From positions 1 through 14,166 of the forward strand of contig NVQY01000158.1 of the NCBI GenBank assembly GCA_002400675.1: a DNA stretch of 14,166 nucleotides. Direction: 5' to 3'. Shown piece by piece: positions 2,229-9,100 of the stretch (its first letter is position 1; each line of letters begins with the position of its first letter). Under the pieces are notes generated by a model. That model worked only from the letters and a program-made list of their open reading frames with translations. It searched no databases and was not told the DNA's origin. The stretch is from Paracoccaceae bacterium (GTDB lineage: Bacteria; Pseudomonadota; Alphaproteobacteria; Rhodobacterales; Rhodobacteraceae). The translations under genes were made by a program, and so were the position numbers.

Positions 2229-2834
2229 TCAGACCCACGGGCGTTCCACGGCTGCTTTGGCCTCGAACCCGTCGATGGCGGCGACCTTGTTCAGGGTCAG
2301 GCCGATGTCATCCAACCCTTCTAACAGACAGTGTTTCTTGAAGGAATCCACTTCGAAGGCAAACACTTCGCCATCGGAGGTGGTCACGGTCTGGGCCTCA
2401 AGATCGACGGTCATCCGGGCGTTTTCGCCTTTTTCCGCGTCCTGCATCAACACGTCGACCACCTCTTTGGGCAGGACGATCGGCAGGATGCCATTCTTGA
2501 AACAATTGCTGAAAAAGATGTCGGCAAAACTGGTCGAGATCACACAGCGGATGCCGAAATCCTTGATCGCCCAAGGCGCATGTTCACGCGACGACCCACA
2601 GCCGAAATTGTCGCCTGCCACCAGAACTTCGGTGTTGCGATAGGCCGGTTTGTTCAGCACGAAATCGGGCCGTTCATTGCGGTCGTCGTCATAGCGCATC
2701 TCGTCAAACAGGTTCACGCCAAGGCCCGAGCGTTTGATGGTTTTGAGGAACAGCTTGGGGATGATCATGTCGGTGTCGATATTGATCAGCGGCATAGGGG
2801 CCGCGACCCCGGTGATTTTGGTGAATTTTTCCAT
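2229..2834 (-). CDS. leuD: 3-isopropylmalate dehydratase small subunit LeuD
   Basis: This is the small (swivel-domain) subunit of isopropylmalate isomerase, which with LeuC converts 2-isopropylmalate to 3-isopropylmalate in leucine synthesis in the cytosol. The 201-residue length is normal. Visible signatures are MEKFTKITG at the N-terminus, [10 protein letters not shown] (18-27), and the conserved [17 protein letters not shown] block (74-90). The ATG at 2834 is preferred over in-frame upstream starts because it has GGAG seven bases upstream and gives the family N-terminus; upstream starts would run into the DUF4276 gene. The RBS and first 11 codons lie inside a 44-bp direct repeat whose other copy sits 1847 bases upstream, on the far side of the inserted ATPase/DUF4276 pair. 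The DUF4276 stop is one base before this ATG, so leuD is probably now translationally coupled to the inserted genes. The coding sequence appears intact. Confidence 0.97.
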
Positions 2835-2846
2835 GTTAGTCTCCGA
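2803..2846 (-). repeat. 44-bp direct repeat, leuD-proximal copy
   Basis: This copy contains the leuD GGAG ribosome binding site, the ATG and the first 11 codons (through most of the Ala codon). It matches 4650-4693 at 43 of 44 positions in the same orientation. The one difference (2829 versus 4676) makes codon 2 GAA (Glu) here and GAT (Asp) in the other copy. Identity breaks off cleanly on both sides. The two copies bracket the ATPase/DUF4276 module, as expected for an insertion that duplicated or replaced its target. No terminal inverted repeats of transposon quality accompany it. Confidence 0.95.
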
Positions 2847-3396
2847 TTGTAACGGCAAGGTGCCTGAGGCTAGCCACCGTGTGGCCAAAACTTTTCGAAT
2901 TGTTGTTGTCGACATCCAAATGTTGCGCGATGTCGTTTGCGCGCATGATCTTGCCCGGCCCTCTATTTGAAAGTCGCCTCAAAACCTCTGAAGGCTGGGG
3001 AATATCATCCGGGTTACCCCGAACCGAATTCGGTCTGCTGCCTTGTGTAAGATACCCCGCCATTTCAAGCGCAAGAGGATCGCCCAGAAACCAAGCCTCC
3101 AGTTCCTGACACACGATCCGTACGGTTGTTTTGGCTTCTTTGCCGGCGTTTCGAGCGAACACCTTTAGAGTTTCTTTTCTGGCGATACAGTCTCCATTGT
3201 CATTATCACGAAGTATCAGGAACGATGTATCTGGAGTATTCCAGTTTGGTAGCTTGATACGAACGGACCGTTCCAAGTCCTGTACCCCCTGATGCGGCAA
3301 AATTTGGATCAGTGAAGCGTCCAGCCCAAGTTTTGGAATCAGATGGTCCAGCGTGGTCTTCATGCTTTTTTCCTCAACAAAGATAACCAGCGTCAT
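2836..3396 (-). CDS. DUF4276-type, TOPRIM-like protein, partner of the adjacent ATPase
   Basis: The 186-residue product resembles the DUF4276 family, which is related to the TOPRIM fold of OLD-type nucleases. Candidate metal-binding acids are E8/E9 in the first strand (VIFVEEK), the acidic motif LRDNDNGD (62-69; D64, D66 and D69) and E98/E100 in [11 protein letters not shown] (96-106). HQGVQDLE (35-42) is also typical. The ATG at 3396 overlaps the ATPase stop as ATGA, so the two are a coupled pair. Its last three codons and TAA come from the 44-bp repeat, that is, from the leuD leader. Hence the native C-terminus of this protein may have been changed at the junction. GC is lower than in neighbouring genes. 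A nuclease-like effector role is inferred from the fold and partner. The family call is fairly confident; the function is not known from sequence. Confidence 0.8.
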
Positions 3397-4607
3397 GCGG
3401 GATCAACTCCGGCAAAAAGGTTTTCGCGCCATAACCAACCCGGCCTGTCCCCTGCGTCGACAAACGACTTGAGCAGTGCATCGTCTGCCGCCCGATGAAT
3501 TGTGCTGTAACCGGCCTCTTTCTTGAGCCAAAAAATTGAAGAAAGCGGAACTGCGTTTAGAAAGTCTGGTGAGTGGGTGGTAACAAATACCTGACCCTCG
3601 CCCCTTCGTCGATGGGCGTAATCCGCAAACTCCTCAGCAAGGATCGTAAGTAGGCTCGGGTAAAGTTGATTTTCAGGCTCCTCTACGCAAAGCAGAGGAT
3701 GCGGGTTTGGGTCCGCCAGAAGGGCAAGATACGCGAACATCTTGATAGTTCCATCTGATACTGAACGGGCGATAAAGGAAGTATCAAATGCCTCATCCCG
3801 GAATCGAAGCACTACCCGGCCATCGCCGGTATCCTGCGCAATCACTTCGGCTATGCCCGGAACACGATCTGCCATTCTTTTGATAACATCTGAAAAAATT
3901 TTCGGGTGATCGTCATGTAAATATTGCGCATAGAGCGCAAGATTGTCACCTGACGCACTTAGGTGCTCTGCCGGTGCCGCATCCGGCTCCCCGCGCGCAT
4001 CAGCAATATGAAAATCGCTGACGGTCCATTGCTCTATCAGTGAACGAAGTTGGCTGGCAGCATCAAAATCATTGAGTTGCCCTAGCGCCTTGATGGCCAG
4101 AAAGTATGGTTTGTCCAACTGATAAGTTTCACGGGGCAGTGTTTTGTAATCTACATCAGGATTAAAGGCATCATCCGTTTCTTTTACAGCCTCACCAATA
4201 CCATTTCGGAAGTCAAGAAAATGATACGGGGATCCAGTGTGCAGAGCGCGCCTGAATCTGAGAATTTCCCTTTTTACGGTTGTTCTGCGCTCATGCTCCG
4301 CAATCTCAATCGAGTACGTAACTAGCCGGGATACATCCTCATCCTCGAAATCCAGCTTGACTTTGAGCTGAATTAGAATTGTATCCTTTTCGCTTCCACG
4401 GGATACAACCTGTGTAAACCCACCTCTCTTTTGAAGCGCTGATCGCACGTCACCGATCAAACAATCCTTGAGGAATTCAAACACGTCAATCAGAGTGGAC
4501 TTTCCCGAACCATTGGCACCAACCAGCACAGCAAATCCTGGAATGTTGTTCATCTCAACGTCTTTGAGTGCCTTGAAGTTTTTTACCTTAATGGATTGTA
4601 TTTGCAC
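3393..4607 (-). CDS. AAA ATPase (AAA_21 / OLD-like, ABC-type head), candidate defence ATPase
   Basis: The protein has 404 residues. It opens with the SMC/RecF-like IQSIKVKNFKAL, followed by Walker A GANGSGKS (30-37). An ABC-like signature SVSDGT lies at 282-287, Walker B LLCVEEPEN at 305-313 (with E309/E310) and an H-loop TTHSPDF (343-349, H345). The long middle part (about 60-270) is divergent. The start is GTG at 4607, with AGAGG seven bases upstream. The gene is preceded by a 23-codon leuD stub that stops two bases before this GTG, and it overlaps the TOPRIM-like gene by four bases. GC is uneven but clearly lower than the flanks: the row 4141-4200 is 37% by hand count, against 70% at 5341-5400 in leuC. 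ATPases of this class pair with TOPRIM nucleases in OLD, Gabija and PARIS systems; anti-phage action here is inference. A DNA-repair role is the main alternative. Confidence 0.87.
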   Translation of the reverse strand: MQIQSIKVKNFKALKDVEMNNIPGFAVLVGANGSGKSTLIDVFEFLKDCLIGDVRSALQKRGGFTQVVSRGSEKDTILIQLKVKLDFEDEDVSRLVTYSIEIAEHERRTTVKREILRFRRALHTGSPYHFLDFRNGIGEAVKETDDAFNPDVDYKTLPRETYQLDKPYFLAIKALGQLNDFDAASQLRSLIEQWTVSDFHIADARGEPDAAPAEHLSASGDNLALYAQYLHDDHPKIFSDVIKRMADRVPGIAEVIAQDTGDGRVVLRFRDEAFDTSFIARSVSDGTIKMFAYLALLADPNPHPLLCVEEPENQLYPSLLTILAEEFADYAHRRRGEGQVFVTTHSPDFLNAVPLSSIFWLKKEAGYSTIHRAADDALLKSFVDAGDRPGWLWRENLFAGVDPA

Positions 4608-4609
4608 TA

Positions 4610-4681
4610 CTATACCTCTCTACCGTCCGGCACCCTAACGGTAATCATTGCGACCCCGGTGATTTTGGTGAATTTATCCAT
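4610..4681 (-). pseudogene. leuD 5' stub: duplicated RBS, start and 11 codons, read as a 23-codon minigene
   Basis: From ATG at 4681 the frame reads [11 protein letters not shown], matching the LeuD N-terminus except Asp for Glu at position 2. It then crosses the junction into unrelated sequence (MITVRVPDGREV) and ends at TAG, 4612-4610. The GGAG ribosome binding site seven bases upstream is intact, so ribosomes probably still initiate here. The stop lies two bases before the ATPase GTG, an arrangement that favours re-initiation. This is either the remnant of the original leuD start or an element-borne copy. No function of the peptide is claimed. Confidence 0.8.
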
Positions 4682-4693
4682 GTTAGTCTCCGA
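4650..4693 (-). repeat. 44-bp direct repeat, HdeD-proximal copy
   Basis: This is the second copy of the leuD RBS/start segment (43/44 identical to 2803-2846). On its upstream side it abuts a small GC hairpin (4694-4708, stem CGGGG/CCCCG, loop of five) after the HdeD-like gene; that hairpin is absent next to the leuD-proximal copy. The 4693/4694 border therefore probably preserves the ancestral leader of leuD. Confidence 0.95.
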
Positions 4694-4713
4694 CGGGGCT
4701 GATCCCCGGTTTG

Positions 4714-5241
4714 TTACTGGTCGATACGATTTTTGAGCGCACGCAGGAAAAAGGCCAGCATGACCAGCCCGGCTCCGTTGAACAAAAGTTCAATGCCCAG
4801 AAGAATACCAAGCAGACTCGGGGCGATCACAAAGAAATTGGCGGTGATGTAACCGGCCAGCAGGAGCGACAGGGCACCAGACAGCAGCATCGGCCAGAAG
4901 AACGGCGTGGTGCGCATCTGATACGCGGTAATCAGCCGGGTAACGCCGCTGGCCGCAAAGATGATTGTCACCAGCGTGGCAAGCGAAATGACGCCTTCCA
5001 AGGGCCGGAATATCAGGGACGCCCCGAGGAACAGCATCAACAGGCCCAGCGCGAGTCCCATCCATTTGGCCCCGCCCTCACCGCTAAACCCCGCAAATAT
5101 CTGGATGCCTCCGGATATGGCGAACATGAACCCGGCCAGCACGGTGACGGTTACGGAAGCGGCGATCGGATTGGCCAGCACAACGAAACCGAACACAATC
5201 GAAAGGATGCCGAGGATAAGCCATTTGACCCAGATTTTCAT
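4714..5241 (-). CDS. HdeD-like (DUF308) small membrane protein
   Basis: The 175-residue protein is almost entirely hydrophobic, with about six membrane segments: near 7-24, 31-53, 61-80, 86-103, 115-137 and 140-167. The N-terminus MKIWVKWLILGILSIVFGF, the repeated small-residue helices and the length fit the HdeD/DUF308 family, named after an E. coli membrane protein linked to acid resistance. No catalytic motif is present. The ATG at 5241 has an AGGAG site about eight bases upstream. It lies 30 bases after the leuC stop and before the leuD leader, so it is co-transcribed with the leucine genes. Its relation to leucine synthesis is unclear; sharing the operon may be incidental. The family call is good, while any acid-stress role here is only inferred from the family name. 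Confidence 0.85.
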   Translation of the reverse strand: MKIWVKWLILGILSIVFGFVVLANPIAASVTVTVLAGFMFAISGGIQIFAGFSGEGGAKWMGLALGLLMLFLGASLIFRPLEGVISLATLVTIIFAASGVTRLITAYQMRTTPFFWPMLLSGALSLLLAGYITANFFVIAPSLLGILLGIELLFNGAGLVMLAFFLRALKNRIDQ

Positions 5242-5271: not shown

Positions 5272-6675
5272 TTACAGCATTTTCCGCACATCCGTCAGCT
5301 TTCCGGTGATTGCCGCCGCTGCGGCCATGATCGGGCTGACCAGATGGGTGCGCCCTCCGCGGCCCTGACGCCCTTCAAAGTTGCGGTTCGAGGTGGCGGC
5401 GCAACGTTCGCCCGGTTCCAGCTGATCCGGGTTCATCGCCAGACACATAGAGCACCCCGCGAGGCGCCATTCAAAGCCGGCATCGGTGAAAATCTGCGCC
5501 AGCCCCTCTTCTTCGGCCTGCAAACGCACCAGACCAGAACCGGGCACGATCATCGCCCGCATCCCGTCCTTGATCTTTTTACCCTTGAGGATACCGGCAG
5601 CGGCGCGCAGATCTTCGATCCGCCCGTTGGTGCACGATCCAATGAATACGGTGTCGATTTCGACCTCGGTCAGCGGCGTGCCGGGGGTCAGGCCCATGTA
5701 GTCCAGCGCGCGTTGAACCGCCCCTACCTTGCCACCCTCGAAATCCGCAGGTGCGGGCACGTTCGAGGTGATCGGCAGCACGTCTTCGGGCGAGGTGCCC
5801 CATGTCACGACTGGGGCGATGTCTTCTGCGGCGATGGTGATCACTTCGTCCCAAACCGCATCGTCGTCGGTGAACAGGGTTTTCCACCACGCAAGCGCGG
5901 CCTCCCACTGTGCGCCCTTTGGCGCGTGGGGGCGGCCCATGACATAATCATAAGTGGTTTGATCCGGCGCGATCAGACCGGCGCGCGCGCCGCCCTCAAT
6001 CGCCATGTTGCAGACGGTCATGCGGCCTTCCATCGACAGATCGCGAATCGCCTCGCCGCAATACTCGATCACATAGCTGGTGCCGCCGGCGGTGCCGGTC
6101 TTGCCGATCACCGACATGGTGATGTCCTTGGCGGTGACGCCGGGGGACAGTTTTCCGGTGATCTCGACCTTCATGTTCTTGGATTTCTTCTGGATCAGCG
6201 TTTGCGTGGCCAGAACATGTTCCACCTCTGACGTGCCGATGCCATGCGCCAGCGCGCCGAATGCGCCATGGGTGGCGGTGTGGCTGTCGCCGCACACCAC
6301 GGTCATACCCGGCAGGGTCCAGCCCTGTTCGGGACCGACGATATGCACGATACCCTGACGGATGTCGCTGACCGGGTAGTAATGGATGCCAAAATCACGG
6401 GCGTTCTTGTCCAGCGCCTCGACCTGAATGCGGCTTTGTTCGTTCTTGATGCCCTGTTCACGGTCCGGCGTTGTTGGTACGTTGTGATCGGGCACGGCGA
6501 TGGTCTTGTCGGGTGCGCGCACCGGGCGGTTCAACAGGCGCAGGCCCTCAAAGGCTTGCGGGCTGGTCACTTCGTGCACCAGATGGCGGTCGATATACAG
6601 CAGGCAGGTGCCATCGTCGGATTGATCCGCGACATGGGCATCCCAGATTTTGTCATAAAGCGTTTTGGGGGACAT
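5272..6675 (-). CDS. leuC: 3-isopropylmalate dehydratase large subunit LeuC
   Basis: This is the aconitase-family large subunit of isopropylmalate isomerase; with LeuD it interconverts 2- and 3-isopropylmalate using a [4Fe-4S] cluster in the cytosol. The 467-residue length is standard. The cluster ligands are C348 (SCTNGR), C408 and C411 (GCSMCLAMN). Other signatures are [14 protein letters not shown] (29-42), VPDHNVPTT (61-69), [13 protein letters not shown] (128-140) and [16 protein letters not shown] (430-445). ATG at 6675 is preferred over an in-frame ATG ten codons upstream. It has AGAGG five bases upstream and gives the usual [11 protein letters not shown] start. It is the first gene of the operon leuC - HdeD-like - ATPase - DUF4276 - leuD and has a long structured leader, so transcript-level regulation is plausible. 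Confidence 0.98.
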
Positions 6676-6723
6676 GTGTCCTCTCCCGTAGTTTGGAAAT
6701 GTCAAAAAGGGTGGCGGTGCCGG

Positions 6724-8359: not shown

Positions 8360-9070
8360 TCACGTCTGTGTGTCCGGTGGCACCCGCAACAGGATCTGGC
8401 GCGATTGCGATACAAATTCGCGCCGGTACAACATCGCGGACGTCAAAACCACCGCCAGAATAAGCGGGATCGGCCCCAGCAACCACGCCACCACCGCCAG
8501 CGCAAAGTAGACCGACCGCATCGCCCGGTTGAACGAGCGCGCCGCCGTGATGCTGAGGTCTGCCGACTGACTGGCGCGCGGCAGGGCAAGCGGGGCGGTA
8601 GGATCATTGGGCACCGAGGCCATCAAAACAGAGCAATAGCCAAACAGCCGGTGCGACCAGACGAATTTCAGGAAAGCATTGGACAGAAACAACAAAAGCA
8701 TCAGGATCTTGATCTCCCAGACTACAGTCGGCGCGTTTCCCAGTGTCAGGTCACTGGCCAGCCCGGCCAGCCGTTCGGTGTTGCCAATCAGGGCAAGACC
8801 TCCGCCAATGGCAATCATCGAGGCCGAAGCGAAGAACGCCGTGCCCTGGCGTAAGTTGCTGACCAGTTGAGCGTCAAAGATTCGCGGCTCGCGGGTGACC
8901 ATCTGTTGCATCCAGTCACGGCGGAAATTATCCATCAACACCGAAACCGAGGGTTTACCCGGCGATGTTTTTTCGATCCGCCAGTTGATCCAGACCCACA
9001 GCACGGCCAGCACCGCCAATGCGCCATAGTCCAGCGGCGAAAACAGATATAGTCGGTCATTCCATGTCAT
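8360..9070 (-). CDS. DUF599 family membrane protein
   Basis: The 236-residue protein resembles the DUF599 family. It has an N-terminal membrane segment (about 14-30), then a soluble stretch with RRDWMQQMVTREPRIFDAQL. A hydrophobic pair follows (about 78-97 and 118-130), then the motif FLKFVWSHRLFGYCSVLM (133-150), and two C-terminal segments (about 187-215). No enzymatic motif is visible and the family has no established role. ATG at 9070 gives the expected MTWNDRL start, but no strong ribosome binding site precedes it. It is transcribed divergently from glcD with only 80 bases between the two starts, so its promoter must lie close to or overlap the glc control region. The small exported protein follows 35 bases downstream. 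Confidence 0.85.
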   Translation of the reverse strand: MTWNDRLYLFSPLDYGALAVLAVLWVWINWRIEKTSPGKPSVSVLMDNFRRDWMQQMVTREPRIFDAQLVSNLRQGTAFFASASMIAIGGGLALIGNTERLAGLASDLTLGNAPTVVWEIKILMLLLFLSNAFLKFVWSHRLFGYCSVLMASVPNDPTAPLALPRASQSADLSITAARSFNRAMRSVYFALAVVAWLLGPIPLILAVVLTSAMLYRREFVSQSRQILLRVPPDTQT

Positions 9071-9100
9071 GGCTGTGACAGTATGTTTTCGGATGCGTAC

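Follow-up and report, generated by a model that had tools for sequence, protein, structure and literature searches.

A duplicated leuD start around an ATPase/DUF4276 pair points to insertion of a defence-type module with long target duplication

Introduction

The original accounts of restriction-modification (R-M) systems entering genomes by insertion with long target duplication are reportedly those of Nobusato and colleagues from 2000 and of Furuta and colleagues from 2010. As far as the excerpted texts go, some R-M systems insert with duplications that are long, vary in length and measure roughly 100 base pairs (bp) (PMC3874152), much the same is reported in PMC3031569, and such insertions also appear in PMC1643837 and, for one H. 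pylori case, in PMC4978471, while the excerpt of PMC2654758 just cites them. Here we analyse a 14,166-nucleotide stretch of Paracoccaceae bacterium DNA (contig NVQY01000158.1, assembly GCA_002400675.1; hereafter the window), in which a two-gene module encoding an ABC-type ATPase and a DUF4276 protein lies within a leuC-hdeD-leuD operon between two copies of a 44-bp segment taken from the start of leuD. We conclude with good confidence that the window records an insertion with long target duplication of a horizontally acquired defence-type module, a conclusion about the class of event and not about its route.

To our knowledge, the way in which small defence modules lacking an integrase or transposase reach new sites is poorly understood. 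The scar described for R-M systems is now seen around three further kinds of defence module, mainly at host-gene edges that were left intact. How the two repeat copies differ offers a means to discriminate an edge copied in place from one brought in, making the mechanism testable from genome data.

Results

The two copies of the 44-bp segment lie in the same orientation at 2803-2846 and 4650-4693, match at 43 of 44 positions and begin 1847 bp apart, an identity and period that the initial annotation had already given. They form by far the top direct repeat of the window, whose other repeat families measure 17-32 nucleotides at 72-89% identity, and the segment has just these two matches in the incomplete source assembly (a draft of 251 contigs, 67.6% complete) when up to 3 mismatches are allowed; a search of GTDB contigs for the exact 44-mer returned no match. 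Each copy holds 12 nucleotides with the leuD ribosome binding site (RBS), followed by 10 complete codons of leuD and two bases of codon 11. The genes involved are all on the minus strand, in the order leuC, HdeD-like gene, ATPase gene, DUF4276 gene, leuD. The downstream copy (2803-2846) runs into the intact leuD gene (2229-2834; Aconitase_C, 1e-37), and the upstream copy (4650-4693) leads into the insert, opening a stub frame of 23 codons (4610-4681) that stops at TAG just before the GTG of the ATPase gene; its first 11 residues are those of LeuD save for the single mismatch and the remainder is insert-encoded. An intact leuD on one side and a stub on the other were thus correctly recognised at the outset. 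Because the DUF4276 stop codon, a TAA at 2836-2838 that belongs to the leuD RBS region, sits in the downstream copy, the insert proper is 2847-4649 (1,803 bp). Its GC content is 0.491 versus 0.603 in the rest of the window, in agreement with the lower-GC module initially noted, and GC content at third codon positions is 0.46 and 0.53 in the insert genes versus 0.73-0.75 for leuC, leuD and hdeD.

Comparison with three congeners, G001 (76% complete), G002 (68% complete) and G003, supplied the empty site that had been proposed as a check. A leuD gene was found in G001 and G003, with no leuD match from G002, and the ATPase was absent from all three at E <= 1e-20. In G001 (locus L002, LeuD 95% identical), leuC and hdeD are followed by one single leuD start. 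The window aligns to this locus in two blocks (L002 positions 1-1532 and 1489-2107), which both span 1489-1532, exactly 44 bp, and the window flanks, once joined in a script, give one alignment of 1,238 columns at 80.5% identity that crosses the joint. An insertion is thus supported, with an empty site that matches base for base and a duplication that, at 44 bp, is indeed too long for ordinary transposition. The leuC-leuD interval of G003 lacks both hdeD and the insert. Across the family, the ATPase at E <= 1e-60 occurs in 4 of 394 genomes, the window's own genome counted in.

We found no indication that the start of leuD is a preferred target. A second leuD-start copy was present in 0 of 29 relatives (best score 13; up to 1.5 kilobases (kb) upstream were covered, with leuC beyond the stretch in 4 of the 29), which disagrees with the suggestion that the 5' end of leuD serves as an insertion point and that other cargo would be found there. 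In the 25 of 29 relatives whose leuC falls within the fetched stretch, leuC and leuD are separated by 3 to 1,300 bp, and an HdeD-like gene occupies the interval in 7 of the 29. Insertions are tolerated in the interval, but we see no sign of a common attachment site.

We then looked for the same arrangement around other defence loci, scoring direct repeats that bracket both genes of a module and counting those with a score of at least 18; the HEC-01 scan, named after the PADLOC label that the window pair carries, covered 80 ATPase loci from GTDB genomes plus others. Bracketing repeats of 21-92 bp were present at 7 of 135 HEC-01 loci, window included (6/85 in the first set, which holds the window, 1/30 in the second and 0/20 in the third). 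In control comparisons, mixed-locus pairs gave 1/786, shifted placements 3/591 and leuD loci 0/27, and in a scan with tight geometry ordinary groups of open reading frames gave 2/243 versus 6/102 for modules (Fisher P 0.0097; the 102 still contain the duplicate locus L094). AbiE loci, picked as a control, were themselves positive (5/54), as was one of 12 Gabija loci; the top score among 6 Shedu loci was 17, and none was counted positive. In total, 13 loci are bracketed, and the duplicated sequence and its length (21-336 bp) are different at each.

The duplicated pieces are mostly edges of host genes, as named from their translations. Among the HEC-01 loci, L073 duplicates 21 bp in which the end of one gene overlaps the start of its neighbour, L075 duplicates 92 bp from the 3' end of a meaB-like gene, and L145 has a 51-bp copy from the 3' end of a RhuM-like gene that precedes an apparent hsdR. 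The repeats of 40 bp at L047, 24 bp at L054 and 23 bp at L100 lie between genes; L054 and L100 are the weakest positives, as the shifted control also got to 24. Of the AbiE loci, L182 (112 bp) repeats the final part of an upstream gene and L195 (200 bp) that of an opposite-strand gene, L186 (60 bp) and L202 (42 bp) repeat the beginnings of a cinA-like and an hsdR-like gene, respectively, and L246 (94 bp) a piece between genes. In the Gabija locus L221, 336 bp from a gspM-like gene's 3' end are present twice (4575-4910 and 8751-9086) with two mismatches, both synonymous. Inserts measure 1.68-2.03 kb (3.84 kb for Gabija), barely more than the modules themselves, in scans limited to repeats near modules.

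Several decisions define these counts. The first HEC-01 set fell from 91 to 85 loci: L033 overlapped itself, L035 and L038 lacked sufficient length, L039 and L040 repeated the loci L043 and L044, and L094 shares an identical ATPase with L098. The remaining 85 include several close relatives of each other. From the 31 entries of the second set L143, the window again, was left out, and L123 was counted negative, as the 602 bp repeated there form a dispersed-repeat cluster. Loci L227 and L230 were dropped from the third-set scan as too short, and L239, with a partial duplication within AbiEii, was scored as negative there. The tight-geometry scan (entry set of 36 loci) omitted L175, L177, L181 and L200, whose windows overlap on short loci. 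L145 rests on the second-set scan, having been missed in the tight scan where its DUF4276 frame was misplaced. For Gabija, 13 of 17 hits were fetched and L209, lacking a GajA frame, was left out. A genus search for an empty site of L145 gave two weak partial matches, neither usable.

Some loci in these scans deserve separate mention. The HEC-01-like module of L145 and the AbiE module of L202, which are unrelated, both lie between RhuM-like and hsdR-like genes with gene-edge duplications, a setting that looks like a type I restriction operon. In L123, the 602-bp dispersed repeats around the HEC-01 pair (816-1417 and 3399-4000) look composite and unlike a target duplication, and in L239 the 5' part of AbiEii is partly duplicated downstream of an intact copy (2601-2664 and 3537-3600). 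Loci L150 and L259, from related genomes, carry a short repeat, TTTCCGAATA(A/G)AAAAT, that brackets the pair below threshold, with one copy close to the start of the ATPase and the other behind its partner gene.

The insert encodes just two genes, neither of them a recombinase gene. The initial annotation had reported no integrase or transposase, which holds, and no good terminal inverted repeat, which needs qualification: a weak, imperfect one exists, with a score reached by 9 of 1000 shuffles. Nothing comparable was found at the 12 other bracketed loci (lowest p ~0.07, at L145).

The differences between repeat copies bear on where the second copy came from. A second copy made on the spot would be a dead fragment and drift at all codon positions. 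At the nine loci with coding repeats that differ, third codon positions hold 25 of the 34 mismatches (P 1.9e-6 versus one third, and 4.7e-4 versus 0.44, a rough estimate of the null), distributed as 1/1 in the window, 1/2 in L075, 1/1 in L073, 3/3 in L145, 3/5 in L182, 0/1 in L186, 12/16 in L195, 2/3 in L202 and 2/2 in L221, with reading frames chosen by hand and L221 counted from its alignment. HEC-01 loci alone give 6/7 (P 0.03). In L075, similar but diverged codons go on past the identical core (EKLN versus QKLN). These patterns suggest that some second copies derive from a functional gene of another lineage.

The pair itself consists of an AAA_21/AAA_15 ABC-type ATPase of 404 amino acids (3393-4607; GTG start after AGAGAGG; Pfam PF13304, 9.3e-31; PADLOC PDLC04144, 1.4e-165) and a DUF4276 protein of 186 amino acids (2836-3396; Pfam PF14103, 2.5e-13; PADLOC PDLC04143, 1.7e-41). 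The two genes are adjacent, and both proteins match the PADLOC models for HEC-01. Fold prediction gives the DUF4276 protein an OLD/Toprim-like fold, as expected of the partner protein in OLD/PARIS-type systems; by sequence, no relative in the PDB was convincing. In 51 DUF4276 sequences D64, D66, E98 and E100 are invariant and E8 and E9 nearly so, acidic residues that may correspond to the motifs of a Toprim site. The pair resembles an OLD-type ATPase/Toprim module in split form, and by analogy with PARIS and Gabija it probably works as a split anti-phage ATPase/nuclease of the OLD type. Protein matches to the ATPase come from plasmids (241 records) and phages (5 records), every one below 60% identity, and plasmid DNA similarity to the window is limited to short, distant ATPase and leuD matches. 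Several genomes (among G468, G475, G488, G504, G515, G534, G545 and G587) have three HEC-01-type ATPase matches each, some of them fragments.

Contigs that carry relatives of the module cluster near its own size. Taking the longest contig per cluster for 120 listed ATPase relatives, 6 measure 1200-1799 bp (2 of them 1600-1799), 25 measure 1800-1999, 13 measure 2000-2199, the subsequent bins hold 12, 4, 4 and 4, and 52 are at least 3 kb long; 117 listed DUF4276 relatives give 1 at 1600-1799 and 17 at 1800-1999. In a LeuC comparison 3 of 120 fall between 1600 and 1999, a poorly matched control since long reference contigs abound for a core gene such as LeuC, and the argument therefore rests on the jump between adjacent bins. 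Assemblies may break at the module ends, perhaps because the module has several contexts, and we treat the jump as a lead on mobility.

The module lies behind the leu genes in the same direction, and it is plausible that it is transcribed from the host leu operon. In the scanned region of the insert we found two -35/-10-like matches, where 2.3 are expected by chance, and folding over the leuD stub gave no structural signal (z -0.08). At 38 of the 71 HEC-01 loci with both neighbours visible, a count made with no control set, the module is flanked by two same-strand genes.

The surrounding genes are those of the empty site. The HdeD-like (DUF308) membrane protein gene (4714-5241, minus strand; PF03729, 4e-19; NCBIfam HdeD model below its cut-off) is the native upstream neighbour, present in L002 as well, and leuC (5272-6705, minus strand; Aconitase, 2.4e-177) lies beyond it. 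Named LeuC relatives are mostly from Ruegeria, Roseovarius and other Paracoccaceae/Rhodobacteraceae. Downstream of leuD, positions 1066-1899 encode a 277-amino-acid protein with no Pfam match.

Discussion

We propose that a compact HEC-01 module, an ABC ATPase with a predicted Toprim-fold DUF4276 partner, would have entered the leuC-hdeD-leuD operon by joining of module-bearing DNA at the leuD edge. The joining could have occurred by recombination with a leuD edge already carried on an excised circle, by entry of a linear donor fragment anchored at one end by homology, or by fill-in at a staggered break. In any of these cases leuD would have stayed intact because the 44-bp duplication rebuilt its RBS and start. 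In the wider class of bracketed loci, comparison of the copies favours an imported homologous gene edge: given the third-position excess and the diverged codons of L075, we prefer an edge that was functional elsewhere and arrived with the module via a circle or a fragment. In the window the routes are indistinguishable, as there is one mismatch only and the repeat ends are sharp. A circular intermediate, raised in the initial annotation, is compatible with the third-position bias and the peak of module-sized contigs.

A number of observations weigh against this account. No bracketing repeat surrounds 128 of the 135 HEC-01 loci, so insertion of this kind is either one of several routes or leaves a scar that decays. 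The empty site is a single one, at ~80% DNA identity. The codon-position bias leans on L195, which supplies 16 of the 34 mismatches, and without it the count is 13/18 (P 0.015 versus 0.44). Homology in the window ends abruptly at both edges of the 44 bp, as in a plain target duplication, and the window copies, which differ at 1 of 44 positions, are closer to each other than to the single copy of G001 (~4 of 44 differences), and thus give no pointer to a distant donor of the edge. Finally, 10 of 11 decidable repeat-bounded indels in Haloquadratum were deletions according to the excerpt of PMC3119063.

Some of these points favour passive illegitimate insertion, a route within the proposed class of event in which captured DNA was joined at a staggered break and filled in; the module would contribute nothing, and selection would retain those cases in which neighbouring genes remained intact. 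This would account for a scar common to unrelated modules and for the sharp homology ends in the window. The DUF4276 proteins of close relatives end in, for example, SGDNHG, SGE or NGE, and sequences encoding such ends could pair with GGAGAC in this RBS of leuD and so permit a joint by short microhomology. However, the third-position mismatch excess is unlike the drift of a dead copy, and we hold passive insertion to be possible but less likely than not.

The remaining alternatives fare worse. Site-specific integration of a recombinase-less element, with the leuD start as attB and a tyrosine recombinase acting in trans, would explain the restored gene edge, the att-like length of the repeat and the missing recombinase gene, and the initial annotation likened the repeat to att-site gene-end restoration. 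But duplications that differ in sequence and length at each of the 13 bracketed loci argue against a single att site, and no relative among the 29 has another leuD-start copy in the stretch covered; we consider this reading highly unlikely. We give similarly little credence to an old module lost from G001 by deletion, even though repeat-bounded indels are often deletions and recombination between the 44-bp repeats would recreate the exact G001 arrangement. The module is also absent from G002 and G003 at E <= 1e-20, it is rare in the family and its composition is foreign, which is why we prefer insertion; the stub and repeat would still call for an earlier insertion in any event. It is slightly more improbable still that the ATPase-Toprim pair cuts with a stagger and inserts itself as a new transposon-like or homing-like element. 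The insert consists of the pair alone, the predicted fold is Toprim-like and contig sizes jump at module length, but AbiE and Gabija modules bear the same scar and no common ends were found; a scar that is not specific to HEC-01 speaks against the pair moving itself, as the enzyme need not be the pair. A chance repeat or artefact of the fragmented draft is scarcely credible with 43 of 44 matches at a gene start within one contig and base-for-base agreement with an independent empty site.

A broader, and at present doubtful, extension of the insertion model is that HEC-01, AbiE, Gabija and R-M modules share one transposase-free mobility route, the module moving as a circle or fragment together with a functional host-gene edge. 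If so, entry would occur by recombination at that edge in a related genome, the host gene would be rebuilt each time, and leuD would represent a recent instance.

Judged from a limited literature search, extension of the long-duplication scar to HEC-01, AbiE and Gabija cargo is new. Among the literature matches listed on combined terms, 'target duplication' appeared in PMC3874152 and PMC2654758 only; the term HEC-01 was absent among the matches listed, and DUF4276, looked for in full texts, came up in no paper. HEC-01 is a candidate defence system in PADLOC-DB, where it is a database name only. PARIS (AriA/AriB), Gabija GajA and the OLD nucleases resemble the window pair in that a Toprim fold, in a partner protein or a domain, accompanies an ABC-type ATPase; here, the DUF4276 partner is a separate protein, with 12-18% sequence identity to those structures.

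Integrative elements may restore the end of the gene that holds their att site, and the window resembles them in that a host gene is kept intact through a gene edge borne by the element. It differs in having no integrase in the insert, no common site and a duplication whose sequence and length depend on the locus. With the R-M cases of long target duplication, the window shares a gene pair with no known mobile element, long variable direct repeats and a relative with an empty site: the 44-bp repeats exceed the transposon norm, the empty site carries a single copy, and targets and lengths vary over the 13 loci. The HEC-01 duplications, at 21-92 bp, compare with lengths of roughly 100 bp in the excerpted R-M account, and the copies here differ mainly at third codon positions. 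The cargo is an ATPase/Toprim pair in place of a methylase and endonuclease, and we therefore regard the locus as the same scar around another class of cargo.

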